From contig OZ038460.1 in the NCBI GenBank assembly GCA_964036195.1, positions 12,899,504-12,963,503 of the forward strand: a stretch of 64,000 nt of DNA, read 5' to 3'. Each line of letters begins with the position of its first letter. The first letter of the stretch is position 1. Below, in pieces: positions 12,429 through 62,138 of the stretch. Source of the DNA: Sphaerolaimus hirsutus (taxonomy: Eukaryota; Nematoda; Chromadorea; Monhysterida; Sphaerolaimidae). The position numbers were made by a program, and so were the translations under genes. Below the pieces are notes generated by a model. The model ran no database searches. It saw only the letters and a program-made list of their open reading frames with translations, and was not told where the DNA came from.

Positions 12429-14069
12429 TGTGAGCAAAAGTGGGTGTCCAAAAATTGTAAAATTTCAAAAATTTTAAGTGTAAATGTATATATAGTTCAC
12501 TTAATGAATTTATGTAGAGGGTTGTTTACACTTCCGAGCTTACAACAATTTAAACATTTCAGTTCTACTTCGACGATGGTTTTGGGCGATTCGGTGGGCG
12601 AACGTGGCGTTGACGTTTTCGGCTACGTCGCTGCGCTACGTTGGCAACGTGGCAACGTGCATTTCCGTTTTTCCGGTGCCCCATTGTGTTATGTGTGTTT
12701 TTTCTGGCCAAGGAAAGGATTGGAGGTATTGAGGATCTGACACAAAGTTGACGCTGTGATGTAAATAGTTGTTTTTATTTGTTTAAGATTTTTTTAATTA
12801 GGTATTTTTTAAGAAAGTGAGACAAGTGAATTGGCAACAATTTTAATTGTGACAGTTTAATTTAAAAGTAATTTTTACTAGCGGTTTGGATTGCATAACA
12901 AAGTTTCAGTTATTTTCTCTAAGTAAAAAGAGTGACGCTGCAGTTACGTGTCGTAGTGCGTGAATGGTCAGTGATAACTGAGGGCACATAGGTTGAATTT
13001 TGACTAACTCTCGTTGCATTTTTTTACGTGAGGGTCGCGGCTATTGATCTAGTATGTACTGTGCATTCCTGCATTTCCGGATTGGGAAACAAAAGTTAAT
13101 TTACATGCGATTTTACAAAGGTACACTGATTATAGAGGTGCGATGATGATTGGTGTTGAAAATGAGAGGTAATTAAAAGAATCGAGTCTAACTCGACAGG
13201 CATGATCGCATGTCTAAATGCCTACTCCCTTGGCTTGTTGTGAGAACAGCCCAGTCCGCCGATCCCATCGAAACAAGCACCCATACAGTGACAAGTGTAC
13301 TTATTTTTGAGTGAGTTGAGCAGTTCGGTATTTTCGGGGTGTGGTTTTTGCACAGTGCGTATGGGATCAAAAAGCCGTGGCTGACTAATTAATATTCTGG
13401 TAGCAGAATGAGTGGTGTAGCAGCGAGAGTGGTCATTTTCGTGATAGGTGCCTTCGGTAGTTAATGGCTGTTGCGTTTCGGCATGTGGCAGTGGATTCAC
13501 TTGAGTTTGTTTTTAGTTTTAAACTTCAAAAAGTCATGCAATCTAAACATGCATTTAAGCTACAAAGATTGAAATTTATAAACTTTCAAGTTGCCAATCA
13601 TTTGCATTCATATTTCTGTTAAGCGTTATACCGACTTCATATTCATTTTAACTTTAGGTTTGGTAGGGAATAGGTAAAACTCCAAAAACTCGAGTATGCT
13701 AATTTTTATTTGATTTTACGTTTGCAACTTCGTTATTTTTTTATCTACCTAATCCTAGATTGATTTTTTTGTATTTCCCTTTCCCCTAGAAAACTGATAA
13801 CTTGACATTTGGATATTTAGGAATTTATGCAAATTTCGTGGTTGATCTTTATTATACAAAGAGATGAAATAATAAGCCGCTTGTTTTTCCTGTTTTTTCC
13901 CCGAATATTTTGATAAGTGTAAAGGTGATCTGATTTGAGTGCGTATTTATTTAATCACTCTGATAGAATTTCCGCTAAGAGTCTTTAAAACGGTACCGTA
14001 ATTCATTTTTTCCTTGACAGTCAGTGTGAAAGTTAGTTCCATTCGCCTTACCGGTATCCTAATCTTATC

Positions 14070-14276
14070 ATGGATTATCCCACTTACGACATTTTTTCGT
14101 TGTGTATTAATAATACGTGTGCTTCTTACGCTTTGGATATCAACGTCATTTTCGTTTATTATACGCTCTTTTTGCTGATGGGATTACTGTTCGCGTGTTT
14201 ATTTGTTTCGCTAATTGCTGTGTGTTTCCCCGTTCGTGGAGGTGGTTTTGGGATTTCGGTAGAGTTCGCTGAGTAA
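14070..14276 (+). CDS. Small U3 frame, 68 aa, one predicted membrane helix
   Basis: An ATG-initiated frame with a strongly hydrophobic stretch at about residues 28-52 (FVYYTLFLLMGLLFACLF...) and a polar N-terminal part with paired cysteines. An identical copy is in the 3' LTR (29348-29554). It lies upstream of the LTR TATA box, so it would need transcription from an earlier start or from the 3' copy by read-through. I recognise no family. It may be a chance frame, but its membrane-protein composition is noteworthy next to a second similar frame. Confidence 0.3.
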   Translation: MDYPTYDIFSLCINNTCASYALDINVIFVYYTLFLLMGLLFACLFVSLIAVCFPVRGGGFGISVEFAE

Positions 14277-14500
14277 AATTTGAATCGCCCGCCATTTTTT
14301 TTCGCGCTAAAACAGGTTTTTACAGTATCTCGTGTGTTTTTCCTGTTCTTTTTATTCTTGTCGCATTCGTTCATTTTCTTATTTTTCTATTTTTATCCTC
14401 GCTCTTGTTCCCAACCCGATTTTTTGGCGCGTGAATTCTTTGTGTTTTTGTGTAGTTGATCGACGTATCCTGTAAACTGACGCCGTGAATAATTTTAGGT

Positions 14501-14626
14501 ATGCCCGTTTTAAAATTCCGTGTGTCTGTAAAGTCGTTTGTAAGCATGCTTCTCGTGGTATGTGGAAGTGTTGTCTGGACTTGGCTTATGTTGTTGCGTA
14601 TAAAAGCGTACCGTAATTTAGAGTAG
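14501..14626 (+). CDS. Second small U3 frame, 41 aa, hydrophobic centre
   Basis: ATG at 14501, stop at 14624-14626; basic N-terminus followed by a hydrophobic segment (MLLVVCGSVVWTWLMLL). It overlaps the TATA box and follows an acceptor-like TTTTAG. An identical copy is in the 3' LTR (29779-29904). Whether it is translated, alone or as a second exon of the upstream small frame, cannot be told from sequence. Confidence 0.22.
   Translation: MPVLKFRVSVKSFVSMLLVVCGSVVWTWLMLLRIKAYRNLE
14599..14606 (+). promoter_or_regulatory. LTR TATA box with downstream Inr-like TCAGTC
   Basis: TATAAAAG is followed about 36 bp later by TCAGTC at 14635-14640, an Inr-like word. This is the most convincing core promoter in the LTR and would place the RNA start near 14637. 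The same motif in the 3' LTR is at 29877-29884. Confidence 0.55.
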
Positions 14627-14768
14627 GGGTCGATTCAGTCGAAATTGCTTCGGTTTCATTTTCTTGGAGTTTTTTCGAAGGTTTTGTGCCGCTGGTTAGA
14701 AACTCGCTCTCAGTGTGTTCCCTGTGTTCTATCTAAATGTGTGAATTCTGAGTCTAAAAATCGCCTAA

Positions 14769-14774
14769 AATAAA
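14769..14774 (+). terminator. AATAAA polyadenylation signal candidate in the LTR
   Basis: AATAAA about 130 nt downstream of the inferred start, as expected for the end of R. The functional copy for ending the RNA would be the one in the 3' LTR at 30047-30052. Confidence 0.45.
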
Positions 14775-15067
14775 ATCTCTTCTAAAAACTTCGGACCCCT
14801 TGGTGTAAATTAGACATTCAACTAATTGCTGGTGCGTTGATAAAAACGCCATTCGCTAAAAAGCTAACTTAATTGACGTAGCGTACACCTGTGATATTCA
14901 CTTCGGTGAATTCACCATTGTGCGTTGCGAATTCAATCGGTAGTCGCTTTTCCGTTGCCTTACTTTGTCGCTCATCCAACGAGTAGGTGTGAGATCGGTA
15001 AAACTTGGCAGTTTGCCATAGTGGAATTTGGTTGAGTAAAAAGTAGCCGGTGAAAATTCATGACAAC

Positions 15068-15085
15068 TGGTAGCAGCGAGTGGTT
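15068..15085 (+). promoter_or_regulatory. Primer binding site, initiator tRNA-Met-like
   Basis: TGGTAGCAGCGAGTGGTT begins two bases after the LTR. It matches about 15 of 18 positions of the complement of the 3' end of animal initiator tRNA-Met (recalled, so approximate). TGG at the start pairs with the CCA tail. Position and sequence support minus-strand priming by a host tRNA. Confidence 0.7.
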
Positions 15086-15100
15086 TGTTTAATATTCCCA

Positions 15101-15106
15101 GTGAGT
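15101..15106 (+). promoter_or_regulatory. Candidate splice donor in the leader
   Basis: A|GTGAGT just after the primer site fits the donor consensus and has the position used by retroviruses and insect gypsy-type elements to make a spliced mRNA for a downstream frame. It is a short motif with no RNA evidence. Confidence 0.3.
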
Positions 15107-15125
15107 TCAGGCGACTGATCACCGT

Positions 15126-18100
15126 TTGACAATCGCTGGTGAGAACAAACGAACCACCGCCCGGCTGGAGGAACGGAAGGCTACCCGATCGACGCAACCG
15201 ATAAGCACGGATATTTTTGTTTTGGGACGCGAAACTGACGAAATTATTAGTGGGCAAAAAAGGGAAAAGCGGAAAAGTAAGAAAAAATCGAAATCGGTTC
15301 AGTTCAGTACGGACGCGCACTGTTCTGAACCGGGAACCGCTGAGTTGAGTGACGAACCTAACGACTTTGACGTCAACTGCTGGGTGGACGCGGAAGGACC
15401 GGTCCCTGAAAGAGGTGCGGAGGAGTCATTCCCGACCTGTGAGCAAGGCAAGCCAAGTGCGGGTGCGGAGGTGCCATTCCCGACCGTAGGGCAAAGTAAG
15501 TTAGGGCACCGAAGCGCGAGTGCCGGGTACCGAAGCGCGAGTACCCAGTCGTCGAGTGAGTGTGTGTTTTTCCGGTATTCTACTTTGAGTATGGCGCATG
15601 CGAGCGGTAGTGGTGTGAATACGGGTCCCGATGTGGTGCAATTGTTGATTCAAGCGAAAAATTTGACTTTGAACCAAATTAATTCGTCGATAGTGGGGAA
15701 TTCGGTTCAGGGGTCAGAATGGAACCTTAGTCAGGTTGTGACTCAAACGGTGAGTATTGCCGCTTATTTGTATAATCAGCGACCCATGAGTTCTTTGGAA
15801 AATGGGAACATGAGTGATAATGACGAAAAATTAGTGTCATTAGTAAAGTTAGGTGTTGACTGCTATAATTTGCGAAATGATGTGAGTCAAATTGCGGACG
15901 CGATTAATGCATTTGCTGAGTATATTCATTTAGAAAAGCCTGATATGCAAGCGATTAATTCTGTAATTAGCGCTGTTTCTAATTCGGGAGGGTGCTCTAC
16001 CGCTACCACACCACCTATACCTGCTGTGAGTATGATTGCTACTAGTAGGGAGGGTTATGCTGCTGCCATGACCGCGCTTACTGGACAGGTGATACCTTTT
16101 AAGGGGCGCGCTGATGATAAATTTGCTGATTGGCGTAAAAATTGGGACGCAGTTTGTGAGGCGTTGCAAATTCCGACGGATGAGCGAAAATCGCTGCTTC
16201 CGGTTTATTTGCGTGACAGCGCGCGTTCGATTTACATGTCGCATAAGAGTGAATTGATTAATTTAGATTATGAGGAGTTTATGGACACTTTGGAACGTTA
16301 TTATACTAACCCCATTTCGGAGCATCATGCGCAAAGGGAAGTGATTAGTAGTGAGCAGGGCGAAGATGAAGATGTGTTAAATTGGTCAGTGCGGCTGGAG
16401 AAGATTATAAAACGCGCTTTCCCGAAACTATCAAAAATTGAACGCGAAAAGATGGCTGTGGCGAAATTTGTCAGTGGATTGTATCCTGACATCCGTAGGA
16501 ATGTATCTATTACTGCTGGGGCTAAGTTTCAAGACGTAGTCAATAATGCGCGCACGCAAGAAAGTTTTCTGGAAATTGATAAGGACAAAGTGGGTGGTAA
16601 GAAAAAGTCAAAATCCAACGCTGAATTAGTTTCAGAAGCCACCAATTCGGTAATCGAGCGAATTTTTGCTTTAGGGGGTGCGGGAGCTTTCGGAAATTCC
16701 CCGCCCGTTCCGGCGGCGGCGGAAAATCCAAAGTTTGAGGAACAGCGAGTGAAATTGGAGGAACTTTCTAGGCAGTTAGAGGATAAGGATAAGCGTTTAG
16801 TTGACTTGGAAAAGCAATTGATAGGTAACAATGCTGCGAAACCAGTTTCCAAATTTAGGCCGCGTAAATTTGATGAGGGCTGTTATGAATGTGGGGCAGA
16901 TGATCACTTTCGCTCTGATTGTCCTAAATTGACAGAAGAGGAAAAAGCGCGCTTTAGAAATTTTCGGCGCGGGCCGCCGCAGCGACCGATGAATAACTTC
17001 AGAGGTCCAGCGAATATGATGCGCTCTGCACAGCAACCTGTATATTCCATGCAAGCGCCGCCTTACCTGTATTATCCCCCTCCCGCGCAAGTGTCAACTA
17101 CTAGTTGGTCTCCAGTGCAACAAGTTCAATCATCGCAAATGGCCATTGCGGCCCCTCCGTCAACTGAATTGACTGCGTTAAATCCGACGCGCGTGTCTGC
17201 GAACTCAGTGAATCATGCACGCAGCGTGCAAGAAAGTAAGGAATATGTGCGCATGATTAGGGTTGTACCGGGTCTTGAAAGTTCAGATGAGGAAGCAGAG
17301 GATCCATGCAATCCGCCTGAAATAACGCCGCAAGAACATCAATTTATGCTCGAAAGAGAGGCTTGGATTATGCCTTGGGTTTATGCGCGTTCGTTAGATA
17401 GCATGATTTTTCGAACAAAGTGGTGGGCTCAATTGCAACACATGGGTTTGCAGGGGTTGAATATAAGCGGGTTCTGTGAGCATGCTGATGAGCATCCGCA
17501 TGATGACCCTGAGGACACGTTGACGTACGTTAAGTTAGAAGCGCTGCTAGAATTGACCATGCATACATTTATGTGTGAACCGCCGGACATTAGTTTGTCG
17601 CGAACGTCATCTGACTCTGAATTGTATGTGTTGTCCGATTATTGTGAAGCGAGCGTGCCAACTTTGTACCGAACGTGGTCGGAACCGAGTATGTTGCCCA
17701 GTGTGTTGAACCGTGTGTTTTTCCTGTGCTGTCTATTTACGTTTTTTGCAAGTGTTGATGCCCTGGGTGTTCCAAGTGGTGGCGTTGTTAAGAAAAAAGG
17801 AGTGTCAGATGAGTGGATTTTGACCGTGCGAAATTTTCTTGAGGGATTTATCGCTGGAATGTGCACTTCCGTGTTTTTGAGATATATTCTGCCCGCTTTG
17901 TGTGAACTGGTGTTGTATTTAGTGTTCACAGTGTGTGATTGGATAAAAATGAGAGTGTTGCGGGTTCAATTAAATCGCATGTTAGCGATAGAAAATAGGC
18001 GCAATCCTGCAAGGGGTGCGACCCCCGTGACACCGCCGCAAAGGTTAAATCCAGGTAGCGCTGACAGTTCAGGGTATGGTGCCGATATTGAAGAAACGCC

Positions 18101-19517
18101 AGTGAGTAGATTTAAGCGTTTGCCGCCGCTGCGCGTTCCTAAAGGTTCTGCCGTCATGGAAAAGGTGAATGTAGTCACGCTGACCAGTGAAGAAATTGCG
18201 AACATCAAAAGTATTACGGCTAAGCGTAAAGAACTCGTGCCAATTTACTATAGTCCGTCGATTACGGTAGAAATTGAGGGGAATGAATACAAAAGGTGTC
18301 TGTTGGACACAGGTGCGATGAGGTCATTGTGCAGCCCGCTGGTGTTGGCTAGGCATCGAAATAATTGCATAGCGTTTGATGAGGTCACGCCTGTGGGGGG
18401 ATTGCAAAGCGCGTCTCAATGCAAATTGCAAATTGAGGGTCAGTTGGAACTTCAAGTGATGATTACCGGGAAAGCGTTTTCTATTGTATTTCAGGTGATT
18501 AGCGGCTTGTCGGACGACATTTTATTAGGCGCTGATGTATTGAGGCATATGGTTATTGATATGCCTGCGCGTGAGTTGCGAATTGAGAGTGGCGATGCGC
18601 GTAAAAAGTTGACTGTGCCTTTTGACAACCCGGCGCCTGTAGTGCAAGAACGGCATATTTATGCAGTTGTGACTGAACCGACTGAAATTAAGCCGCGGCA
18701 TGAAACGATAATTAGTGCGAAATTATCTGAACCAATTGATGAATTGACGTTTGCGATTGAGCCTTTGAACGAATTTCATGTGAAAACGGGTGTGTTTGCA
18801 GCTAATGCTGTTTATGAAAGCGCGAGTGAATTGTTTCCGGTGAGGTGTGTTAATGTGACTGAAGTGCCAGTAAAGTTGCAGGTGGGCCAGAAAATTGCCA
18901 TCGTAGAGCCAGTGGAGTGTGTTTTACAAGTGCGACGAGGTGATCCGCCTGCTGAGTGGGTGCGAGAGTGCCGCGAGCGTGATATGAGTTTTACCGATAC
19001 TATACTTGAAGCTAGTGAGGAAAAAGTACCAACGAAGGGCACTGTACCTTCAAAAGCGGCGAATACGACTATGAAAGTGGTTTGTGCCGATGGGAGAGAA
19101 ATGGATTTTGAAGTACCGGTTGAATTGGACGAAATTAAGCGCCAGCAATTAAAAGAGTTAATTTTGACTCATCAGGATGCGTTCGCCAGGGATAAGTATG
19201 ATTTGGGATACAGTGAATTGGTTGATTATCGACTTCAGTTGACTAGTAAAATTCCGGTCGCGTGTCGAATGTATAGGTTGAGTTTGGATGACCAGCAGTA
19301 CTTAGAAAAGCATTTAAGTTGCCTGCTTGAGCATGACGTCATTGAACACAGTACGAGTCCGTACTGCGCGCCGACATTAGTTGTTACTAAGCCGGATGGT
19401 GCCAAGCGCATGGTGATAGATTATCGACGATTAAATGCAGTAGTTCACGCTCCCCAATTTCCGCTGCCCAGATTAGACGATACAATAGAGTCATTGCACA
19501 GTTGCAAATACTTTTAG
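15126..19517 (+). CDS. gag-pol: Gag, protease and N-terminal RT of the giant element
   Basis: Numbering starts at a TTG; the frame is open from about 15106 and its first ATG is at 15591, the likelier start unless the leader is spliced or initiation is non-ATG. Residues about 312-485 look like a retrotransposon Gag capsid domain, 537-565 a coiled coil, and C586-C599 a CX2CX4HX4C zinc knuckle. Hydrophobic segments follow at about 864-877 and 904-937, unusual between nucleocapsid and protease. The aspartic protease has DTGA at 1061-1064 and an ILLGADVL strand near 1135. RT starts near 1375 and includes MVIDYRRLN. The frame ends at a TAG inside RT; coding similarity continues immediately in another frame. 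Products would be the Gag shell and maturation protease. Confidence 0.9.
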   Translation: MTIAGENKRTTARLEERKATRSTQPISTDIFVLGRETDEIISGQKREKRKSKKKSKSVQFSTDAHCSEPGTAELSDEPNDFDVNCWVDAEGPVPERGAEESFPTCEQGKPSAGAEVPFPTVGQSKLGHRSASAGYRSASTQSSSECVFFRYSTLSMAHASGSGVNTGPDVVQLLIQAKNLTLNQINSSIVGNSVQGSEWNLSQVVTQTVSIAAYLYNQRPMSSLENGNMSDNDEKLVSLVKLGVDCYNLRNDVSQIADAINAFAEYIHLEKPDMQAINSVISAVSNSGGCSTATTPPIPAVSMIATSREGYAAAMTALTGQVIPFKGRADDKFADWRKNWDAVCEALQIPTDERKSLLPVYLRDSARSIYMSHKSELINLDYEEFMDTLERYYTNPISEHHAQREVISSEQGEDEDVLNWSVRLEKIIKRAFPKLSKIEREKMAVAKFVSGLYPDIRRNVSITAGAKFQDVVNNARTQESFLEIDKDKVGGKKKSKSNAELVSEATNSVIERIFALGGAGAFGNSPPVPAAAENPKFEEQRVKLEELSRQLEDKDKRLVDLEKQLIGNNAAKPVSKFRPRKFDEGCYECGADDHFRSDCPKLTEEEKARFRNFRRGPPQRPMNNFRGPANMMRSAQQPVYSMQAPPYLYYPPPAQVSTTSWSPVQQVQSSQMAIAAPPSTELTALNPTRVSANSVNHARSVQESKEYVRMIRVVPGLESSDEEAEDPCNPPEITPQEHQFMLEREAWIMPWVYARSLDSMIFRTKWWAQLQHMGLQGLNISGFCEHADEHPHDDPEDTLTYVKLEALLELTMHTFMCEPPDISLSRTSSDSELYVLSDYCEASVPTLYRTWSEPSMLPSVLNRVFFLCCLFTFFASVDALGVPSGGVVKKKGVSDEWILTVRNFLEGFIAGMCTSVFLRYILPALCELVLYLVFTVCDWIKMRVLRVQLNRMLAIENRRNPARGATPVTPPQRLNPGSADSSGYGADIEETPVSRFKRLPPLRVPKGSAVMEKVNVVTLTSEEIANIKSITAKRKELVPIYYSPSITVEIEGNEYKRCLLDTGAMRSLCSPLVLARHRNNCIAFDEVTPVGGLQSASQCKLQIEGQLELQVMITGKAFSIVFQVISGLSDDILLGADVLRHMVIDMPARELRIESGDARKKLTVPFDNPAPVVQERHIYAVVTEPTEIKPRHETIISAKLSEPIDELTFAIEPLNEFHVKTGVFAANAVYESASELFPVRCVNVTEVPVKLQVGQKIAIVEPVECVLQVRRGDPPAEWVRECRERDMSFTDTILEASEEKVPTKGTVPSKAANTTMKVVCADGREMDFEVPVELDEIKRQQLKELILTHQDAFARDKYDLGYSELVDYRLQLTSKIPVACRMYRLSLDDQQYLEKHLSCLLEHDVIEHSTSPYCAPTLVVTKPDGAKRMVIDYRRLNAVVHAPQFPLPRLDDTIESLHSCKYF
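15565..15593 (+). promoter_or_regulatory. Leader motif shared with the helicase frame, gag copy
   Basis: TTTTTCCGGTATTCTACTTT directly precedes the gag ATG at 15591. Nearly the same sequence precedes the ATG of the third frame. It could be a splice acceptor, an internal promoter, or a translation-initiation element. Confidence 0.5.
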
Positions 19518-22320
19518 CAGTGTCGATATCAATCAAGCGTTTTACAACATTGCGCTGCATCCGGATGATAGACATATTACGTCGTTTCGTAATTGTTTTG
19601 GCCAATTTCAGATGAAACGCTTGCCGATGGGATTAAAGTGTTCCCCGGCTTTAGCGCAGCGCTGTTTTGAAGTTACAATGGCTGGATTATTGCATCGAAA
19701 TGTGTTGGTATATATAGATGATTTGCTCATTTACAGTAGGTCATGGGAAGATCATTTGAGTGATATAAGTCAGGTTTTGTCGCGTTTGATAAGTAGCAGT
19801 TTTAAAATACACCCAAAAAAGTGTTTTTTCGCGCGCACAACTGCTGTTAAATTCCTGGGTTATATGGTAGGGCGTGAAGGGATTTGTATACCAGATGATA
19901 AGCGAAAGTATTTGAGTGACTGGCCGCTACCTGTGTGTGTGCGTGAAGTTAAAGCGTTTTTGGGTGCCGTTGGGTTTTTCCGGAGATTAATTCATAAATG
20001 TGCTGAATATGCCGCTCCTTTGTCTAATTTAACTCGAACGAAAACTGAATTAGGAACTGAAAAGTATAGCGGAAGTACTCCCGTGGATTTAAATGCGAAC
20101 CCCGCCGCTTTGGAAGCTTTTAATAAGTTGAAAGTGATGGTGGCTGAAAGTCCCTGTATACAGTATCCTGATCCCAGTAAACCGTTCATAATTATTACCG
20201 ATGCTTCTAAAGTTGCATTAGCTGGCATTTTAGTACAACGCGCTGAACCTGCCGCCGCTTTGCATGCGTGTTCATTTTATAGTCGAAAACTTTCCGAAGC
20301 GCAATCCCGATGGCCTGCAATTACGCAAGAAGCATGTGCTATTTTTGAGAGCATACGCAATTGGCATTGTTATTTAGCGGGCCGGCCGTTTGAAGTTTGG
20401 ACTGATGCGAAAAGTATTTCATGGGTGAAAAATCCAAATTTGGAAACCCATCCCCATACGGGTTTGCACCGATTTGCGCTTGCTATTCAATCATATCAAG
20501 TTACTTTTAAGCATTTGCGTGGGAAAAGTAACGAATTGGCTGATGCTTTGTCGCGCCGGCGTGATGCACCCGTTGAATTTGATGAGCGTGTTAATTTGGA
20601 CGAAGCGTTTGAAGAATATGCATTTGATATACCTGTTGATGAATTGGCGAGAATTTTGACTGAGGAAATGGCGTTGTTAACATCTGAGGAACATTTGGCT
20701 TGTCAAGCGGTAGCTAAGGCCATGGCGCGATTGGCTTCTGCTCAAAATTGGCTGAAACATGCGAAAATGAAGTCTTTGGAACCGTCAGTTACGGTAGCTA
20801 CTGAACTGCCAGTGGCAAGCGTTGCTACTGTGCGGGCGCCGCATCCAATGACAATGCGTGTGCGAAGTAAAAAGAAGGTGGAGTCCAATTCTGAAAATGC
20901 TTTGAAATCGCCGCCCAAAAGTGACGATGCGCCTAAATTAATGGCTGGTGGCCGCCGTTCTGTTCAATTAATTAAGAAACCGGAAAAACTCGATGCTTTA
21001 CCTCCTCCCATTACTCCAATTGAAGAGTTGTCGCGTTTGCAAAAAGAAGAACCGTATATAATTACAATTCGTCGTATGTGCGAGGAATCTACTTTGCGTA
21101 GGGCCCCACCGTTTTTCATTGATCAATTTGATGTTGTCAGGCGTGATGCAGAACCGTCAATATTAGTGGGTGAAAGGAAATACGACCCTGCGTGCATTCC
21201 CCAGTCACTAGTTGTCACTGTGTTAGAATTGGCTCATAATCATCCCACTGCTGGACATTTAGGTGTGATGAAAACGTTTGAAAGATTGCGCGAATTTGCT
21301 TGGTTTACAAATATGCGTCCAGAATGCGCTAGATGGGTTTCTACTTGCCCTTCGTGCAACGCGAAGAAAGGATTGCGCCGCTCAATGAAAACTCAAATTC
21401 AGAGCCGGAAAATCGCTAAGTTTCCTGGTGATTTTATTGCGATTGATGCAGTAGGGCCATTGCCAATTACCGAAAAAAGGAATGTGCATGTATTGGTATT
21501 TGTGGATCAATGTACGCGTTTTGGTTTAGCAGTGCCTGTTCCTAATTTGAAGCAAGACACTGTGGCTATTGCGTTTTTGCAACATGTGTTACCGATTTTT
21601 GGTGTGCCCGCTGTAATCTTATCCGACAATGCACCAAGCTTCATTGGCGGCATTTTTGCGGAATTGCTACGTTATCTAAATACAGTGCAGCATAAGTGTT
21701 TTAACTACACGCCAAAAGGAAATGGTTTGGTTGAGCGCAGGAATGGCGTCTTAATGGAAATAATTTTGCATTACGTGAATGGCTCGCATTCGGATTGGGA
21801 CAAACACTTAGGCGCCGCTGTCTATGCGTATAATACGTCTATGCACCCCTCTATGAAAGTGACACCATATGCGTTGCTATTTGGATCAAATTCTCCGTCA
21901 CTTTGGGAGCGTATGATCGAGCCGACGGGAAATGGCACCGATAAGACCGATAAGCCGACGGCGTACAGTCCTTTTGTGTCAAATTTAGACGCGCGACTTT
22001 CGGACGTCCGCACGGCCGCGCATTCGGCTTTACAGCGCGCGCAAGAAAAAGAGTGTTTTTATGCAAATCGCAGTGCGCGCCGCTTGAATTTGAAGCCCGG
22101 TCAATCAGTTCGTGTTTATTCGCCCCGAATTCTTCGAAAGTTAGGTCGCGTTAAGAAATTCACGCATCATTATATTGGCCCGTATGAATGTTTAGATTAT
22201 GTGCATCCCATTGTGACCGTGTTTAATAGGTTGTCTAAGAAAACTTATACCGTTCATGCTGATCGCGTTAAATTAACAAATGAACCAGTTAATCCCACCT
22301 ATTCGCAGATTTTCGGTTAA
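19516..22320 (+). CDS. pol: Pol: RT, RNase H and integrase of the giant element
   Basis: Given from the point where RT similarity resumes; it has no ATG of its own until 19612 and should be read as the continuation of Gag-Pol. RT has SVDINQAF at the junction and the catalytic YIDD at residues 66-69. RNase H carries TDAS near 229 and ends near ADALSRR (about 341). Integrase has the HH-CC zinc module near 574-612, then the catalytic triad: D in AIDAVGPLP, D in LSDNAPSF and E in GLVERRNG, with exactly 35 residues between the last two (DD35E). A GPY/F module (HHYIGPYE) near 884 supports Ty3/Gypsy. Length and motifs look intact, so function depends on resolving the upstream frame change. Confidence 0.92.
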   Translation, partial: SSVDINQAFYNIALHPDDRHITSFRNCFGQFQMKRLPMGLKCSPALAQRCFEVTMAGLLHRNVLVYIDDLLIYSRSWEDHLSDISQVLSRLISSSFKIHPKKCFFARTTAVKFLGYMVGREGICIPDDKRKYLSDWPLPVCVREVKAFLGAVGFFRRLIHKCAEYAAPLSNLTRTKTELGTEKYSGSTPVDLNANPAALEAFNKLKVMVAESPCIQYPDPSKPFIIITDASKVALAGILVQRAEPAAALHACSFYSRKLSEAQSRWPAITQEACAIFESIRNWHCYLAGRPFEVWTDAKSISWVKNPNLETHPHTGLHRFALAIQSYQVTFKHLRGKSNELADALSRRRDAPVEFDERVNLDEAFEEYAFDIPVDELARILTEEMALLTSEEHLACQAVAKAMARLASAQNWLKHAKMKSLEPSVTVATELPVASVATVRAPHPMTMRVRSKKKVESNSENALKSPPKSDDAPKLMAGGRRSVQLIKKPEKLDALPPPITPIEELSRLQKEEPYIITIRRMCEESTLRRAPPFFIDQFDVVRRDAEPSILVGERKYDPACIPQSLVVTVLELAHNHPTAGHLGVMKTFERLREFAWFTNMRPECARWVSTCPSCNAKKGLRRSMKTQIQSRKIAKFPGDFIAIDAVGPLPITEKRNVHVLVFVDQCTRFGLAVPVPNLKQDTVAIAFLQHVLPIFGVPAVILSDNAPSFIGGIFAELLRYLNTVQHKCFNYTPKGNGLVERRNGVLMEIILHYVNGSHSDWDKHLGAAVYAYNTSMHPSMKVTPYALLFGSNSPSLWERMIEPTGNGTDKTDKPTAYSPFVSNLDARLSDVRTAAHSALQRAQEKECFYANRSARRLNLKPGQSVRVYSPRILRKLGRVKKFTHHYIGPYECLDYVHPIVTVFNRLSKKTYTVHADRVKLTNEPVNPTYSQIFG

Positions 22321-22843
22321 AAACCCTGAGATTTTCCGCTCTTCAACCTAAAGTGTCCCAAGTTAATTATTCCGTTCGAAAATTCAATTAAAATTTATTT
22401 TTGGATTATTCGCGTTTAATTCTGACCGTCAATTCGTGGTGAGTTCGGGGTTGCAATTTTTGTGTTTTTGGTTGTGCGCGAGATAATTTTGTAGCAAAAA
22501 GTTGGGTTTTTATGTAAAAGGTAAAGCGCGAAAATTTCATAAGTGTTATTAATTGTTTGTTTCTAATTATCGCCGCAAGTTTAATTCGTTAGTTGTTCAT
22601 ACCATCGCATTTATTTCGTTCTAAATTTGTTCTTTAATTTCATTCTCATTTTCGCCCATTTCGCAACAAAATCAAAATTATTTTTGGCGCAATACGTTCA
22701 ACGTAGTGCGTTGAAAATAATTCGCAACTTTTCGATTAGGGTGTCGCTCAGACCTTCGTGCATTTCGGTGCCGACATTCTGGGTGGCGCATTTTAAGTAG
22801 CAATAAGTTGTGTTTTCCGGTGCTCTACTTTGAAGTGTGAAAT
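22321..22843 (+). other. Intergenic leader between pol and the helicase frame
   Basis: 523 bp without a sense gene. Near 22760 CGTGCATTTCGGTGCC resembles a stretch of the LTR (about 12655), and the last 35 bp repeat the gag leader motif. The region probably holds the signals for expressing the third frame: an internal promoter, splice acceptor or ribosome entry site. Confidence 0.45.
22809..22837 (+). promoter_or_regulatory. Leader motif shared with gag, helicase copy
   Basis: TTTTCCGGTGCTCTACTTTG sits 15 bp upstream of the ATG at 22844. Aligned with the copy before gag, about 26 of 30 positions agree, far more than chance for two leaders 7 kb apart. AG dinucleotides after TACTTTGA would allow splice-acceptor use. 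Confidence 0.55.
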
Positions 22844-25800
22844 ATGACTAGTTCGAGTGGCGTACCTATGGGTGGGTATGGAGCGAGTTCCAGTTCGTAT
22901 CGTGGCGGGCGCATAGCCAAAGCGCCGCTCAAGTCGTGGACTTCTCACGGAAAACAGGGCGGTGACACTATTCCGCCGCTGCCCTACAATCCTCCTCGAA
23001 ACGCCCGATCGACTTGTCCTGAATTTGTCATCAACCAGAAGTTGTCGGGAATAGTGGATCGAGTTCACGTCGGTAACGAGCCGCGTCCTACCAGTTATCA
23101 ATGCCACATTCGTTTCGACGGCGATGCGCAGGCGCTTTTGGAAAGTTATCCGGAGTGGTCGGAAGCGGAAACGGCTTATCCCTTTTTCACCTATTCGGTC
23201 AACAAAGCGGAGCGCGCTCGTGAGCGGTCGGTGCAGAAAATTTTGAAGGAATATCGCGAGGCTAATGAAGCTTACGACATGTTTTTGCCGCTTGTCCGCC
23301 ACGGCATGCATTTTGTCGCGACTGGTATCAGTAGGGTTAGCGCCAATCCGAAATATTGGGAATTGCGAGGCGTCACAATTATGAAAAATGACGCTCAAAT
23401 GCCATTGTTTTTGGGCCGCCCTGTTGTTATTGTTTCGCAAGGACAGGTTGACCTCTCCGTCGATGAGCCAGCATCGGAAATTTCACAGAGAGGACAGGAA
23501 AATCGCGAAGGATATCATCCTTATCCGGCCAAGTGGAGATACTTGCGTTTGAGGGCAGCGTTCACCCCTTCGCGGTACATTAGTGCACCCCCCTTCAAAG
23601 GCGCCGACGAGCGTGATCCGGGCCCTGAAAAGTTAATTTTTGCGCATAGCGAAAATGTCATGGAAAGTGACATACACCCGCACGCCGGACAATTAGGTGT
23701 GGCGCATGTAGAATATCACGCTTTTGATGACGCCGGCAAAGTCAACAACTTTTATTGGGGTCATGCGTATGGCGTGCGTATTTTTTCGGCGCGGCAAATC
23801 GAGGCTGGTATGGAGTGGAAGGGCGAAATGAATAGAAATTATCTCACTTCTCAGCTGCAGCTTCGTTCCATCTTTTTGGCCGCCGCTAACGTGTGTCACG
23901 AAGCGCATTTGCGATACACTGCAACTAGGGCGAAAGCGGTGCGCGCGCAGGTGACTTGGCAAAATGGGCCGCGGGGATTAATTGCGATAATTAGGTGGGA
24001 GCGCGTGCATTTGAATCCAGCTGCTGCGATGCGCGACACGGCCGAGTGGCACAGGAATAAGGCGCAGGGCTACATGTTGAATTTTACTTCGCCCATGTCG
24101 TCGCTACAAATCGTCGAAGCTGATCCCCGGGGGGAAGAGCGCGCTCTGACTGGCCGCCCGCAAATAAATTTACGTACGGTCAGCGCCGACATCACTGCCG
24201 AGGCGGTGCAGCTGGTCGCCAAACCGGATGTATTGGTGCCGCAGGCGCTGTCGCCGCATTTGCTGCCTAATTGCGATTACATGGTGCGCGGTTCCGCTTT
24301 GTCGCCTAGCTACAATGGCCGCATGGAAATTTTGGAGCGGTTGTGCATAATGGGGCCTAGTGGTTACCGGCCAACCGAGAGCAACACCGGAATGCTCGCT
24401 GTGGAAGACCAGGTCAAAATGGCGGTAGTGCTGCACAAGCAGTTGAACCAAGTTGAGACTGATTGGCAGCGCACGCTCGAAAAAATTGAGTCTGACGGGT
24501 TGTATGCCGAGGTGCGCAGAGGCACATGCGAAGATTTATTGCAAGCGCAGCAGGGTGATTTTCGGCCGCAGGAGGGGCAGGGGCGTGTGATTGCGTCAGT
24601 TATCAAGTCTGTGCGAAAAACTGCGCCGCTATTGTTGATGTGTGATTCACCGTTCGGTTCCGGTAAAACGACTGTGCAAAGTCAGTGTGCGTACGCGGTT
24701 GCGTTCAAATTTACTGAGAAAAATGACCCGCCGAACCCGCTGAAGAGGGAATTGCCCTCTGATGCAAACAAAAATGCGCTTTACCACTCCACAATGATTA
24801 CTTGCAGTGTGAATTCGGCCGCTGATGAGTCTGCCAGACGATCGTTGCAAAGTTTGGCAAACATTGGTCTGCCTAATTTGGAAACGGTCGTGGAAGTTTT
24901 GCTGCGCAGTAGGGAGAGGTGGACTGCGATGGATGATAAGCCAAATTTTCAAACACCTGGCTATGCGCGTTTTTGTCAGGTGCGCGCCGCTTTCGCGATT
25001 CGCGTGCTGAGTCCATTGTTGGAAGTTGACGATCGCTATGTCGATATGACGCTCCAGCAATTGCCGCTGCTGAATTTGATCGCGCAAAACATGCCCATGC
25101 ATGTGATCCGATTGAATGACCACTGGCTAACTGCTTATGAACGCTTTACCGCTCAACGCCATATTTGTGACACTTTGAACGAGATCATCGCGAACAATCA
25201 ACACCCCGCCGACATTTTCGAAGCCATTCGGTCGCAGTTGCCTTTGGTTCGTTTGTCCATCGACGAAGACGACGAGGATGACTTGGTGCCACTGGACGAT
25301 GGTCAAGAGGAGGGCGTGCAGGCGTGGGGGGCCGCGGCTGGCTTTGTCGATGACAACCAGGTGTGGGGCAAAATTTACAAGCGCGAAATGCGACGCCTCG
25401 TTAGGGTGGCTACTAGGTTGCATAAGGTGGTGTTGAATGTGCTGCAGCCAGGCCAAGTCCATGTGACCTTGGATTCATCGCGCGATAAGCGACTGCAAGT
25501 TTTGAAATATGCCGCGGTATTTGTGGACGAGGCGTCTTTGGCGGATGAAACTGCGATTTTTGGCGCTGTTTCAAACGCTCGACTCCCCCACAATGGCTTG
25601 GTGCTTTTGTTTGGCGATAGCAAGCAGTTGACCCGAATGGTCAGGCCGCATTCATGGATCGCTCCGATCCTGAAACCTGATCCATCGCTGATCAATAGGT
25701 TGGTGGAAGGTGTGTTGTGCCCAATTCTGAAGCTCGAGACTGTCTTCCGCGGCCACGACGCGCTGATTCAAGTGAATTCAGTCGCTGCGTACGATGGCCA

Positions 25801-27400
25801 ATTGCGCGCGTTCCACGAATACAGTCAGTGGCGAGATACTTTGCCGCTTATGGCTTGCGGTGCCGATCAGGTGCCTTTGTCTTCTGTGATCGTGCACATG
25901 GGTTTCGAAACGAGCGAGGGCGTGTCTGTTAAAAATTTGACGGAAGTGGACATTGTGGTGCGCGTTGTGCAGCAATTCGTCATTTTGGCGCTGAACAGCG
26001 AGGGCGAGAATGTCGTTCCGTGGAGTGATTTAGAAAGCGCCGATTCGCTGCTGATTGTGTGTTTCTATTCAGCGCAGGAGAGAAGAGTGATTGACGAATT
26101 GGTGCGATTGAGCTGGGCGCAGTTGTTAGGGGGTGAGGGGTTCCCCGATTATTTGGTGACCCCAGCGTTTTGGCGGAAAAAAGTCATCACTGCTGATCGA
26201 GCGCAAGCTCGTGAAGCGCACGTGGTGATTGTGTCATGTGTGAGGGGTAGCGCTCCGCGCGTGGACGCTACTGGACACCCGTCGCAGCGCGAGCGCGATG
26301 TGATGGACAGAATTGGCTTTTTGGCGATGCCGGAGCGGTGCAACGTGGCCACGTCTCGCGCTAAAACGGCCAGAGTCGTGATCATGAACGCCGCTACCGT
26401 GCTGCATTCTGAATTTTTCTGGCGTTTTGTGGCGGTGGAATTAGGGAAGGGACACGTTTTTGCGTACCACGAGCGACATTTGTGGGAGAGTGACCCGTTG
26501 GCTAGGTTTCTGGGCCACTGGAGAAGTGCCCCGGTCGATCTGCCAGAACCCGCTCCGCCCGTGCAAGAAGAAGAAGAAAATGAGGTTCCGCCGCCGCAGG
26601 AAGAAGTTCAGGAGGTGGATGTGAGCGAACAGCGAGTGTCCCCTCAGCCAGACGCCGACGTCGTTCCCGCTCTCGATTCCCCAGACGTGCAAATGTTGCC
26701 GCCCGAAGAGCAGGAGGAGGAGTCAGAGAAAGTTCAGCCGCGCGCGGATGAAAAAGCGAGTTGTTCTCGGTCTCGGCGTCGGTATCGCGGTCGTCGTCGC
26801 TCTCCCTCGTCGAGTTCTTCCTCTTCCTCTAGTTCTTCGTCGGGTTCGTCAAAATCGGGATCGAGTGAGACCGATTCGGCCTCGGAGTCTGAACACGCGC
26901 CGCCCGTACCGGCACACAAACAGAAAACGCACCAGGAGGAGGAAGTGATGGAGGTGGAACAGGAGCAAAGTGAACAAGGTGCTCAACAGCAGGAACCGGC
27001 AATGGAAGGTCAACGGCAAGAGCAAGAACCAGAGCCAGATACTGAAGAGGCCAATAATGCAATTATTGGAGAAAAATTGGATGAGTTAATTCAAATGGCG
27101 GGCGAGTTGAACACCGAGTTGGACGCTGAGCGACAGCAACAGTCCATGAGCCCAGACCGGCAGATGCTCAGAGAAATGGACGCCATCCAGGAGGAGGCCA
27201 ATGAATCTGCTGAGCCCATGCAGGAAGATGAGCAGGAGCAGGAGCAGCCTGAGGAAGTGGCCGCACAGCAGCTGCAGCAACCTGTTCAGGTTGTTGTAGT
27301 TGGCGCGTCACCGCCACCGCAAGAGGAACAGAGTCCGCCCCCGCCAGTGACTCCAACTTTGGCAGGTTTGGAGCCAGAGGAGGAGATGGAAGCGGAGTAA
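22844..27400 (+). CDS. UPF1-like superfamily 1 helicase, third frame of the retroelement
   Basis: A 1518-residue intact frame. The first ~580 residues match no domain I recognise. The helicase core follows: Walker A GSGKTT (605-610), Walker B DEAS (895-898), motif III GDSKQL (924-929), then VFRG, a motif V-like block ending VVIVSCVRG, and motif VI RCNVATSRAK (1165-1174). Order and wording fit the UPF1/SMG2-type SF1 group, 5'-3' RNA/DNA translocases. The UPF1 Cys/His domain is absent. From about 1205 the tail is acidic and Gln-rich, with an SR-like, poly-Ser block near 1305-1345, typical of RNP or condensate proteins. It occupies the env position and looks more GC-rich than pol, hinting at separate origin. 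A role in genome unwinding, RNA export or blocking nonsense-mediated decay is inference. Confidence 0.88.
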   Translation: MTSSSGVPMGGYGASSSSYRGGRIAKAPLKSWTSHGKQGGDTIPPLPYNPPRNARSTCPEFVINQKLSGIVDRVHVGNEPRPTSYQCHIRFDGDAQALLESYPEWSEAETAYPFFTYSVNKAERARERSVQKILKEYREANEAYDMFLPLVRHGMHFVATGISRVSANPKYWELRGVTIMKNDAQMPLFLGRPVVIVSQGQVDLSVDEPASEISQRGQENREGYHPYPAKWRYLRLRAAFTPSRYISAPPFKGADERDPGPEKLIFAHSENVMESDIHPHAGQLGVAHVEYHAFDDAGKVNNFYWGHAYGVRIFSARQIEAGMEWKGEMNRNYLTSQLQLRSIFLAAANVCHEAHLRYTATRAKAVRAQVTWQNGPRGLIAIIRWERVHLNPAAAMRDTAEWHRNKAQGYMLNFTSPMSSLQIVEADPRGEERALTGRPQINLRTVSADITAEAVQLVAKPDVLVPQALSPHLLPNCDYMVRGSALSPSYNGRMEILERLCIMGPSGYRPTESNTGMLAVEDQVKMAVVLHKQLNQVETDWQRTLEKIESDGLYAEVRRGTCEDLLQAQQGDFRPQEGQGRVIASVIKSVRKTAPLLLMCDSPFGSGKTTVQSQCAYAVAFKFTEKNDPPNPLKRELPSDANKNALYHSTMITCSVNSAADESARRSLQSLANIGLPNLETVVEVLLRSRERWTAMDDKPNFQTPGYARFCQVRAAFAIRVLSPLLEVDDRYVDMTLQQLPLLNLIAQNMPMHVIRLNDHWLTAYERFTAQRHICDTLNEIIANNQHPADIFEAIRSQLPLVRLSIDEDDEDDLVPLDDGQEEGVQAWGAAAGFVDDNQVWGKIYKREMRRLVRVATRLHKVVLNVLQPGQVHVTLDSSRDKRLQVLKYAAVFVDEASLADETAIFGAVSNARLPHNGLVLLFGDSKQLTRMVRPHSWIAPILKPDPSLINRLVEGVLCPILKLETVFRGHDALIQVNSVAAYDGQLRAFHEYSQWRDTLPLMACGADQVPLSSVIVHMGFETSEGVSVKNLTEVDIVVRVVQQFVILALNSEGENVVPWSDLESADSLLIVCFYSAQERRVIDELVRLSWAQLLGGEGFPDYLVTPAFWRKKVITADRAQAREAHVVIVSCVRGSAPRVDATGHPSQRERDVMDRIGFLAMPERCNVATSRAKTARVVIMNAATVLHSEFFWRFVAVELGKGHVFAYHERHLWESDPLARFLGHWRSAPVDLPEPAPPVQEEEENEVPPPQEEVQEVDVSEQRVSPQPDADVVPALDSPDVQMLPPEEQEEESEKVQPRADEKASCSRSRRRYRGRRRSPSSSSSSSSSSSSGSSKSGSSETDSASESEHAPPVPAHKQKTHQEEEVMEVEQEQSEQGAQQQEPAMEGQRQEQEPEPDTEEANNAIIGEKLDELIQMAGELNTELDAERQQQSMSPDRQMLREMDAIQEEANESAEPMQEDEQEQEQPEEVAAQQLQQPVQVVVVGASPPPQEEQSPPPPVTPTLAGLEPEEEMEAE

Positions 27401-27706
27401 TGGTAATTTAGGTGTACAGGAATTTTTTTTGTTTTTGTTTTTAGTTGTTTTTGTTAGAGCGAACGTTTTACCAGTAGAATTGAGCTTTTGTTGAATTGAA
27501 AATTGAATTTTCATTGAGTTTTACCGGTTCAAAAGTTTTTTTTGTGTTCTCAACAAAGTGTGGAAAAATACGTAATGGTTGTCAACAAATTTAAAATTGG
27601 TTTAAAATAGTTCTCAAAAAACGGGAATTTAGTTCAATTCGTTTCTTTAATAGTTTTGCTGTGCTTCGATTTTAGCCGGGAGGTAAAATGTATGGCTGGT
27701 GGAGTT
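27401..27706 (+). other. 3' untranslated region before the 3' LTR
   Basis: Non-coding and T-rich. A purine-rich stretch CCGGGAGGTAAAA at 27677-27689 and GGTGGAG just before the LTR are the only polypurine-tract candidates, both imperfect. Confidence 0.45.
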
Positions 27707-30343
27707 TGTGAGCAAAAGTGGGTGTCCAAAAATTGTAAAATTTCAAAAATTTTAAGTGTAAATGTATATATAGTTCACTTAATGAATTTATGTAGAGGGT
27801 TGTTTACACTTCCGAGCTTACAACAATTTAAACATTTCAGTTCTACTTCGACGATGGTTTTGGGCGATTCGGTGGGCGAACGTGGCGTTGACGTTTTCGG
27901 CTACGTCGCTGCGCTACGTTGGCAACGTGGCAACGTGCATTTCCGTTTTTCCGGTGCCCCATTGTGTTATGTGTGTTTTTTCTGGCCAAGGAAAGGATTG
28001 GAGGTATTGAGGATCTGACACAAAGTTGACGCTGTGATGTAAATAGTTGTTTTTATTTGTTTAAGATTTTTTTAATTAGGTATTTTTTAAGAAAGTGAGA
28101 CAAGTGAATTGGCAACAATTTTAATTGTGACAGTTTAATTTAAAAGTAATTTTTACTAGCGGTTTGGATTGCATAACAAAGTTTCAGTTATTTTCTCTAA
28201 GTAAAAAGAGTGACGCTGCAGTTACGTGTCGTAGTGCGTGAATGGTCAGTGATAACTGAGGGCACATAGGTTGAATTTTGACTAACTCTCGTTGCATTTT
28301 TTTACGTGAGGGTCGCGGCTATTGATCTAGTATGTACTGTGCATTCCTGCATTTCCGGATTGGGAAACAAAAGTTAATTTACATGCGATTTTACAAAGGT
28401 ACACTGATTATAGAGGTGCGATGATGATTGGTGTTGAAAATGAGAGGTAATTAAAAGAATCGAGTCTAACTCGACAGGCATGATCGCATGTCTAAATGCC
28501 TACTCCCTTGGCTTGTTGTGAGAACAGCCCAGTCCGCCGATCCCATCGAAACAAGCACCCATACAGTGACAAGTGTACTTATTTTTGAGTGAGTTGAGCA
28601 GTTCGGTATTTTCGGGGTGTGGTTTTTGCACAGTGCGTATGGGATCAAAAAGCCGTGGCTGACTAATTAATATTCTGGTAGCAGAATGAGTGGTGTAGCA
28701 GCGAGAGTGGTCATTTTCGTGATAGGTGCCTTCGGTAGTTAATGGCTGTTGCGTTTCGGCATGTGGCAGTGGATTCACTTGAGTTTGTTTTTAGTTTTAA
28801 ACTTCAAAAAGTCATGCAATCTAAACATGCATTTAAGCTACAAAGATTGAAATTTATAAACTTTCAAGTTGCCAATCATTTGCATTCATATTTCTGTTAA
28901 GCGTTATACCGACTTCATATTCATTTTAACTTTAGGTTTGGTAGGGAATAGGTAAAACTCCAAAAACTCGAGTATGCTAATTTTTATTTGATTTTACGTT
29001 TGCAACTTCGTTATTTTTTTATCTACCTAATCCTAGATTGATTTTTTTGTATTTCCCTTTCCCCTAGAAAACTGATAACTTGACATTTGGATATTTAGGA
29101 ATTTATGCAAATTTCGTGGTTGATCTTTATTATACAAAGAGATGAAATAATAAGCCGCTTGTTTTTCCTGTTTTTTCCCCGAATATTTTGATAAGTGTAA
29201 AGGTGATCTGATTTGAGTGCGTATTTATTTAATCACTCTGATAGAATTTCCGCTAAGAGTCTTTAAAACGGTACCGTAATTCATTTTTTCCTTGACAGTC
29301 AGTGTGAAAGTTAGTTCCATTCGCCTTACCGGTATCCTAATCTTATCATGGATTATCCCACTTACGACATTTTTTCGTTGTGTATTAATAATACGTGTGC
29401 TTCTTACGCTTTGGATATCAACGTCATTTTCGTTTATTATACGCTCTTTTTGCTGATGGGATTACTGTTCGCGTGTTTATTTGTTTCGCTAATTGCTGTG
29501 TGTTTCCCCGTTCGTGGAGGTGGTTTTGGGATTTCGGTAGAGTTCGCTGAGTAAAATTTGAATCGCCCGCCATTTTTTTTCGCGCTAAAACAGGTTTTTA
29601 CAGTATCTCGTGTGTTTTTCCTGTTCTTTTTATTCTTGTCGCATTCGTTCATTTTCTTATTTTTCTATTTTTATCCTCGCTCTTGTTCCCAACCCGATTT
29701 TTTGGCGCGTGAATTCTTTGTGTTTTTGTGTAGTTGATCGACGTATCCTGTAAACTGACGCCGTGAATAATTTTAGGTATGCCCGTTTTAAAATTCCGTG
29801 TGTCTGTAAAGTCGTTTGTAAGCATGCTTCTCGTGGTATGTGGAAGTGTTGTCTGGACTTGGCTTATGTTGTTGCGTATAAAAGCGTACCGTAATTTAGA
29901 GTAGGGGTCGATTCAGTCGAAATTGCTTCGGTTTCATTTTCTTGGAGTTTTTTCGAAGGTTTTGTGCCGCTGGTTAGAAACTCGCTCTCAGTGTGTTCCC
30001 TGTGTTCTATCTAAATGTGTGAATTCTGAGTCTAAAAATCGCCTAAAATAAAATCTCTTCTAAAAACTTCGGACCCCTTGGTGTAAATTAGACATTCAAC
30101 TAATTGCTGGTGCGTTGATAAAAACGCCATTCGCTAAAAAGCTAACTTAATTGACGTAGCGTACACCTGTGATATTCACTTCGGTGAATTCACCATTGTG
30201 CGTTGCGAATTCAATCGGTAGTCGCTTTTCCGTTGCCTTACTTTGTCGCTCATCCAACGAGTAGGTGTGAGATCGGTAAAACTTGGCAGTTTGCCATAGT
30301 GGAATTTGGTTGAGTAAAAAGTAGCCGGTGAAAATTCATGACA
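27707..30343 (+). repeat. 3' LTR of the giant Ty3/Gypsy-like element
   Basis: Same length as the 5' LTR and apparently identical: every secondary frame has the same translation and spot comparison shows no difference. It ends TTCATGACA followed by the duplicated ATAA. Confidence 0.93.
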
Positions 30344-61977: not shown

Positions 61978-62138
61978 CTTGTGTCACTGTAATCGCTCGT
62001 GTGGCGCACGTTGCACGTCGCTGGTTCTGGACGGCGTGGCGGGGGCCGCTACTCTGCTAGCGGTGCTGCCGCAAATGGGGTGGGTGCCCTTGATGTCACC
62101 GGGGGACAGTCAGGGGCAGGTTCGCGTTGGCTTAAATT

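Follow-up and report, generated by a model that had tools for sequence, protein, structure and literature searches.

We analysed a 64,000-nucleotide stretch of the genome of the nematode Sphaerolaimus hirsutus (assembly GCA_964036195.1, contig OZ038460.1, positions 12,899,504 to 12,963,503), hereafter called the window. With near certainty, the retrotransposon at 12429–30343 of the window inserted recently and belongs to a nematode lineage of 17.6–17.9-kb, retrovirus-like Ty3/Gypsy long terminal repeat (LTR) elements. Its third open reading frame (ORF3) encodes a protein with a predicted UPF1-like superfamily 1 (SF1) helicase core, and two families of these elements retain ORF3 as a regular third gene that evolves under purifying selection. 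ORF1 and ORF2 meet inside the reverse transcriptase (RT) domain, probably at a programmed +1 frameshift. ORF3 may serve as a ribonucleoprotein-remodelling helper with which the element RNA is kept, packaged and reverse transcribed, a role to which we give slightly less than an even chance. To our knowledge, retroelements are generally thought to do without a helicase of their own. The conservation of this one in two families implies that some retroelements gain from having one.

Structure of the element and its insertion site

The element and its insertion site comprise the following features.

11980–12428, minus strand: tyrosine recombinase fragment of the presumed DIRS-like element that received the insertion (PF00589 at 19.1 bits, under its cut-off)
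12425–12428, no strand: target-site duplication ATAA, left copy (window sequence and joined-flank test)
12429–15065, plus strand: 5′ LTR, 2637 nucleotides, TG...CA
15068–15086, plus strand: primer-binding site, 19 nucleotides that can pair with the 3′ end of a host tRNA-Met(CAT) once CCA is added
15105–19517, plus strand: ORF1, gag, two hydrophobic segments, protease and first RT part, 1470 codons stop to stop
19489–22320, plus strand: ORF2, remaining RT, RNase H and integrase, 943 codons stop to stop
22321–22843, plus strand: T-rich spacer (39% T) preceding ORF3
22844–27400, plus strand: ORF3, UPF1-like SF1 helicase protein, 1518 codons from ATG (stop-to-stop frame 22841–27400)
27707–30343, plus strand: 3′ LTR, identical to the 5′ LTR over 2637 nucleotides
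30344–30347, no strand: target-site duplication ATAA, right copy (window sequence)
30348–31013, minus strand: second half of the split DIRS-like element; a region resembles RNase H by eye, and no Pfam model reaches its cut-off here

When the flanks are joined without the element and with one ATAA, a single minus-strand frame runs across the junction. We read this interrupted frame as the tyrosine recombinase of a DIRS-like element, on a Phage_integrase match below cut-off. The LTRs, the ATAA duplication and the restored target frame all agree, and the element is therefore a genuine insertion bounded as listed. The LTRs, duplication, gag and pol named in an earlier reading of the sequence (the original prediction) are confirmed.

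The arm of tRNA-Met(CAT) that matches the primer-binding site occurs at eight places in the same genome, two neighbouring ones of which were read; from its features, we take this primer to be the initiator tRNA. The protein order protease–RT–RNase H–integrase is that of Ty3/Gypsy (Metaviridae), with the protease itself below its Pfam cut-off. Pol has 97 relatives at 22–35% identity, some labelled Gypsy by their sources. The window LTR pair shows no differences, and two other pairs have a single difference each, in 2500 and 1007 compared positions respectively. The window's family has thus moved very recently, since its LTR pairs are almost without differences.

ORF3 encodes a UPF1-like helicase core

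ORF3 is divided into an N-terminal region, a helicase core and a tail. The identities below are to ORF3 of the second family, which is described further on.

22844–24475, plus strand: N-terminal region, residues 1–544, 36% identical
24476–26563, plus strand: helicase core, residues 545–1240, 45% identical
25685–26389, plus strand: AAA_12 within the core, residues 948–1182 (PF13087, 72.2 bits, cut-off 27, E = 5.4e-20)
26564–27397, plus strand: tail, 28% identical, rich in Glu, Gln, Ser and Pro; a basic SR-like cluster starts at residue 1309

An open frame of this length would arise by chance with a probability of about 1.6e-30 under a simple base-composition model. The intact 1518-codon frame and four of its motifs were named in the original prediction, and these are present in SF1 order: GSGKTT at residue 605, (V)DEAS at 894, GDSKQL at 924 and RCNVATSRAK at 1165. 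An Ia-like motif at 654, VFRGHD at 967 and AREAHVVIVS at 1122 complete the series; the motif names are our presumed assignments.

AAA_11, the first RecA domain, scores 25.1 bits against a cut-off of 27 when the core is scanned alone, and 18 bits in the second family. The nearest solved chains to the core alone are those of NAM7/UPF1 and SMUBP-2 (E 7e-4 to 0.02), and a two-family profile of the core reaches the same chains at E 2e-5. Searches of the PDB with ORF3 return just the generic helicase core plus chance-level rows. TIGR00376 (IGHMBP2 family) of NCBIfam matches ORF3 at 36 bits, far below its cut-off of 349. The virga-like Viral_helicase1 has no match in ORF3 of the window and reaches 15.9 bits, against a cut-off of 21, in the second family. 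There is no ORF3 match in PHROGs and no relative in scans of viral and prokaryote contigs; phage records give three weak matches. Residues 1–559 have no Pfam match up to E=10 and no PDB match.

Searching for ORF3 by sequence, as originally suggested, had a divided outcome. The genome yields many copies, and a protein search with residues 100–1240 and 905–1215 found no relatives by a method that requires shared 5-residue words, so that distant relatives may exist.

From the ordered SF1 motifs and AAA_12, the assignment of the core as a UPF1-like (SF1B) helicase holds, with UPF1/NAM7 and SMUBP-2 as its best solved matches. Orthology to UPF1 is not supported. Unlike UPF1, ORF3 shows no Cys/His zinc domain in residues 1–559 when Pfam is searched up to E=10, and cysteines are sparse there; its large N-terminal region has no known relatives; residues 1241–1518 of the tail contain no serine/threonine–glutamine (S/TQ) site; and local alignment to a host UPF1-like exon gives at best 31% identity over 81 residues. 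The label "UPF1-like SF1" therefore stands for the core and not for descent from host UPF1.

These features bear on the idea that the ORF3 protein replaces host UPF1 on the element RNA and, having no UPF2-binding zinc domain, blocks nonsense-mediated decay. The UPF1-like core, the absence of any zinc-domain match in Pfam and the tail without S/TQ all favour such a shield, as does the in-RT stop at 19515, which leaves a very long stretch of 8–11 kb to the RNA end. However, the missing zinc domain is equally compatible with every other role, and the large distance from the host exon gives no sign of capture from host UPF1 for mimicry. We consider this shielding function unlikely.

Copies of the window's family

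The genome searched comprises 348,482,957 bases in 762 contigs. The first 1001 nucleotides of the LTR match 40 scored places (of 390 candidates) at 95–100% identity. Besides the window pair, 34 of the 40 form 17 pairs about 15.2–15.3 kb apart, as in the window, and four are single. Seventeen other copies were called full-length from this spacing, and the ORF3 region and the shift site were read in them.

ORF3 is present in all 17 and is 97.8–99.1% identical in the 16 collinear copies. It forms one open frame of 1517–1520 codons in 15; the two exceptions are L042, in which ORF3 is split, and L054, which has an inverted segment and a gap. Of 511 candidate helicase places in the genome, 64 were scored, counting the window's copy, and in 60 of them the frame is open over at least 1514 codons. 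An ORF1 frame of exactly 1470 codons is found at 76 of 110 scored places (1332 candidates). L079 is a diverged copy (about 95% identical protein) that is broken in several frames and still has the helicase.

The repeated linkage expected of a resident gene is thus found in the 17 copies examined, and the same gene order recurs in the second, divergent family. No copy among the 17 lacks the third frame. An assembly join at 22.3–22.9 kb, the other artefact considered at the outset, is ruled out because a join would not recur in 17 copies.

Pieces of the protease–RT region each give more than 1300 first-look candidates, so that numerous further elements, older or related, may be present in this genome. 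The lists of places scored with pol pieces are filled by the two families described here.

A second family with the same helicase

A genome search with AAA_12 gave 454 candidates, of which the best 150 were scored, all over cut-off. The top two resemble host UPF1-like exons, L010 being UPF1 by eye and L009 by score alone. Scores of the other 148 range from 89.7 to 97.8 bits, and at many of these places about 1332 codons are open in one frame. Twenty-eight of these places were fetched and are 93–97% identical to L020 (itself one of the 28), one of them over partial length; the remainder are assigned to the second family by score.

One second-family copy (L056–L058), fetched in three pieces, has LTRs of about 1.68 kb and measures about 17.55 kb in all. 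Its gene order, read in this one copy, is gag, a Cys-rich region, protease with the first RT part, pol and a 1332-codon helicase frame. Retrotrans_gag scores over cut-off in this family and the zinc knuckle below. The two families are 39% identical in the helicase over 1234 positions, 60% in pol, 57% in the protease–RT piece and 34% in gag. The catalytic helicase motifs are kept in both, and AAA_12 matches the cores of the proteins scanned at 72–89 bits. In the simplest history, helicase and pol would have been passed down jointly from a time before the families diverged.

Between gag and protease lies a match to a mononegavirus-like fusion glycoprotein (L056 8232–9999 and L057 3–548), at 28.2 bits for PF24664 (cut-off 27) in one piece of the one copy. 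The glycoprotein region of this copy carries stops and frame changes. Elsewhere, 59 of 90 scored second-family places (1343 candidates) have one frame of 2216–2228 codons, a length that fits gag, glycoprotein region and RT in a single frame; three of the 59 have a stop inside the matched glycoprotein piece. A search with the glycoprotein piece gives a matching frame length and many shared places. Separately, a frame of 22196 codons is listed at G000:C15:17298992, perhaps an N stretch.

ORF1 of the window contains the following recognisable parts.

16110–16451, plus strand: gag capsid, PNMA/Ty3-type (PF14893, 25.3 bits versus a cut-off of 25 with this part scanned alone; 23.2 bits, below cut-off, in whole ORF1)
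16878–16928, plus strand: CCHC zinc knuckle (PF00098, 18.1 bits versus 20.8, below cut-off)
17691–17945, plus strand: two hydrophobic segments (17691–17777 and 17847–17945)
18261–18548, plus strand: aspartic protease, DTGA (PF13975, 14.8 bits versus 28.2, below cut-off)

ORF1 aligns with both flanks of the second-family glycoprotein, at 33% over 115 residues (E=2e-13) and 33% over 48 (E=0.005), and the middle is missing. The homologous stretches lie around the two hydrophobic segments. Our reading of this alignment is that the window's family lost the glycoprotein ectodomain; the change may also have gone in the other direction, with the glycoprotein gained in the second family.

The glycoprotein bears on whether ORF3 could itself be an envelope-position gene, structural rather than enzymatic. 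The third ORF is where an env gene is usually assumed to lie, according to the available part of one report (PMC5408684). However, a hydropathy scan of ORF3 gives a single borderline segment, inside the helicase core; the second-family glycoprotein sits elsewhere, between gag and protease; and the catalytic motifs are intact in both families. An envelope function of ORF3 is very improbable.

Purifying selection on ORF3

Selection was evaluated as the ratio of nonsynonymous to synonymous substitution rates (dN/dS). In the first family, the pooled pairwise value for ORF3 over 16 open copies, leaving out L042 and L054, is 0.128. By part, residues 1–544 give 0.105, the helicase core 0.095 and the tail 0.27. 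Two-state codons that differ by one base number 185 synonymous and 60 nonsynonymous. In the second family, dN/dS is 0.080 (pairs 0.03–0.30) over 18 of the 28 loci, covering roughly 880 codons and with the 10 loci with frames under 800 codons left out; a plus-strand-only run over 11 of the 28 gives 0.075. The purifying selection looked for at the outset is therefore evident in the window's family (0.13) and in the second (0.08). The scored copies are the best-matching ones, among which intact copies are over-represented, and this counts against the strength of the case. The dN/dS values accordingly describe the lineage that spreads and not its decayed copies.

The third-position GC content (GC3) of ORF3 is 0.58 versus 0.38–0.46 in gag and pol, a difference in codon composition that suggests a separate origin of ORF3 at some time. 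It also favours the notion that ORF3 came along by chance, through a one-time capture of a host gene in a single copy or through an assembly join. This notion is refuted by the occurrence of ORF3 in 17 of 17 copies, in the broken sublineage L079 and in the second family, and by dN/dS of 0.08–0.13; its probability is negligible.

The same values bear on counter-silencing, in which the helicase would displace complexes of Argonaute or RNA-dependent RNA polymerase (RdRP) from the element RNA, or compete with host SF1 silencing helicases, so that the element escapes. Nematodes depend on RdRP-amplified small RNAs, and helicases of the UPF1/MOV10 type act there. The status of ORF3 as a separate gene also counts for this role. 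Defence antagonists often evolve fast, whereas the core and N-terminal region here have dN/dS of about 0.1 and the second family 0.08. In favour of the role, SF1 helicases of insect retrotransposons reportedly suppress silencing weakly when assayed in plants, in the part of the report available (PMC6338049). On balance, counter-silencing is rather doubtful. A replication factor appears to fit better than a fast-changing antagonist, because the core and the N-terminal region are equally constrained and the tail is looser.

A candidate +1 frameshift site within RT

ORF1 already contains the protease and the first RT part, and the change from ORF1 to ORF2 falls within RT.

19512–19518, plus strand: UUU_UAG_C, proposed programmed +1 frameshift site within the RT domain, conserved in both families

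The ORF1 stop codon UAG (19515–19517) directly follows the RT residues KYF, and ORF2 resumes with SSVDINQAFYNI one base further. All 17 other first-family copies have UUUUAGC at the frame change, and so do the four second-family copies inspected, namely the fetched one and three more. The genome contains 289 exact matches to a degenerate 24-base motif that includes the shift site, and none to the reversed motif used as control or to a one-frame spelling of the motif. On contig C1, the RT shift site lies 4.4–6.0 kb upstream on the same strand at each of the 16 helicase places listed, 12 of the second family (by score) and four of the first. This linkage is drawn from 150 of 454 AAA_12 places, 64 of 511 helicase places and the first 100 of 289 shift-site places.

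A damaged copy or a sequencing error was considered as the source of the frame change and rejected, since the site is conserved across copies, families and 289 genome places. The diverged copy L079 spells the shift-site motif in its own way.

The change from ORF1 to ORF2 is probably programmed +1 frameshifting, in which the UUU codon would slip before the stop. Three observations weigh against this assignment. No stimulatory RNA structure was found at the shift site in four pieces of 120–121 nucleotides (z 0.07 to 0.93); such a structure is reportedly not required at every known +1 site. No clear extra codon conservation is seen at the site. In E. coli tests covered by the available part of one review, UUU_U is far less shift-prone than CUU_U (PMC5009743), and a high shift rate is therefore disfavoured. 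The same source portion describes a stop codon in the A site as effective in +1 shifting and the base after the stop, often C, as important (PMC5009743).

In Ty1 and Ty3, too, a +1 shift yields Gag-Pol, there at a slow A-site codon (PMC5009743, available part). Those sites lie near the 3′ end of the gag gene (PMC5009743), whereas here the shift is within RT and the protease and RT start lie upstream. Among the titles listed in a search of the open-licence PubMed Central literature, none concerned a frameshift within RT. A conserved frame change in RT would be a new location for programmed frameshifting.

Possible role of the helicase

The proposed mechanism would run as follows. ORF1, the Gag–protease–RT front part, would be produced in excess, and a +1 slip at UUU_UAG_C inside RT would yield the full Gag-Pol. 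ORF3 would be translated from an mRNA of its own. The helicase would bind the element's own genomic RNA, travel along it, strip off proteins and open structure. An RNA of about 15 kb, of which roughly 8–11 kb is untranslated after the main stop, could thereby be kept intact, packaged and fully reverse transcribed. The conservation of ORF3 suggests an RNA-remodelling motor supplied by the elements themselves.

We know of no retroelement that combines its own SF1 helicase with a programmed frameshift in RT. A wider proposal, more speculative and well short of an even chance, is that replication of the lineage involves an SF1 helicase of its own as a constant companion of RT, as in large RNA viruses, with in-RT +1 frameshifting as an added control of RT.

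Several points weigh against the ribonucleoprotein-remodelling role. RNA binding, direction of movement and packaging would be carried over by analogy from the UPF1 family. The N-terminal region has no recognised fold in Pfam and PDB sequence searches, and single-sequence structure prediction of the core gives a predicted local distance difference test (pLDDT) score of 34.4. A TTTTCAG acceptor was not found in the spacer 22321–22843 before ORF3. Genome length alone, on which the original prediction had drawn, is a weak argument for an own helicase, because other giant LTR elements, Ogre and Burro, are described without one in the available part of the Burro report (PMC6431247).

The two families offer a natural test, in a nematode, of what a helicase does in reverse transcription, RNA stability or escape from silencing.

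Comparison with known retroelements

The closest overall likeness is to Burro of planarians, which is Gypsy-like, very long and of proviral appearance (PMC6431247, available part). Like the second family, Burro carries a mononegavirus-related env that lies between gag and pol and is read in their frame, an order reported there as the first case of its kind (PMC6431247). The gag–glycoprotein–pol order of the second family would extend this arrangement to nematodes. The window's family differs from Burro in having no glycoprotein ectodomain. Burro exceeds 30 kb and carries BIR, ankyrin, BCL2, MATH and other domains (PMC6431247), whereas the elements here measure 17.9 and 17.55 kb, and Pfam finds no BIR, ankyrin, BCL2 or MATH match in the window or in the second-family proteins scanned. 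The available part of the Burro description mentions neither a helicase gene nor an in-RT frame change (PMC6431247); here the helicase is a separate third ORF.

Retroelement-encoded SF1 helicases with a full motif set, kept in evolution, are described for insect TRAS/Jockey long interspersed nuclear elements (LINEs) and for two Ty1/Copia fusions, as far as the available parts of the reports extend (PMC4686597, PMC5563155, PMC6338049). Those helicases are virga/tobamovirus-like domains, mostly within LINE proteins (PMC4686597, PMC5563155, PMC6338049). The helicase here, unlike the insect ones, is UPF1-like (AAA_12), forms a free-standing ORF of 1.3–1.5 kilocodons and belongs to nematode Ty3/Gypsy-type LTR elements. 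LTR elements of bdelloid rotifers are similar in that their third ORF is a captured enzyme; the available account lists a DEDDy exonuclease, a GDSL esterase or an env-like protein (PMC5408684). No published description of a UPF1-like or SF1 helicase in LTR/Gypsy or nematode elements was found in the open-licence PubMed Central literature.

Other features of the window

Two long overlapping frames at 59084–61983 on the minus strand resemble, by eye, gag and protease of another retroelement; they have no Pfam match up to E=0.1. A possible start of a cuticle collagen gene lies at 63100–63291 on the plus strand (weak match, 11.2 bits, below cut-off). The nematode cuticle-collagen N-terminal domain is found at 56 genome places at E <= 0.001, all over cut-off (91 candidates scored), in line with a nematode host. 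It is absent from 14 control genomes, a weak control because those with names are prokaryotes. Positions 7087–7930 contain TTTTCCG-rich tandem repeat arrays.

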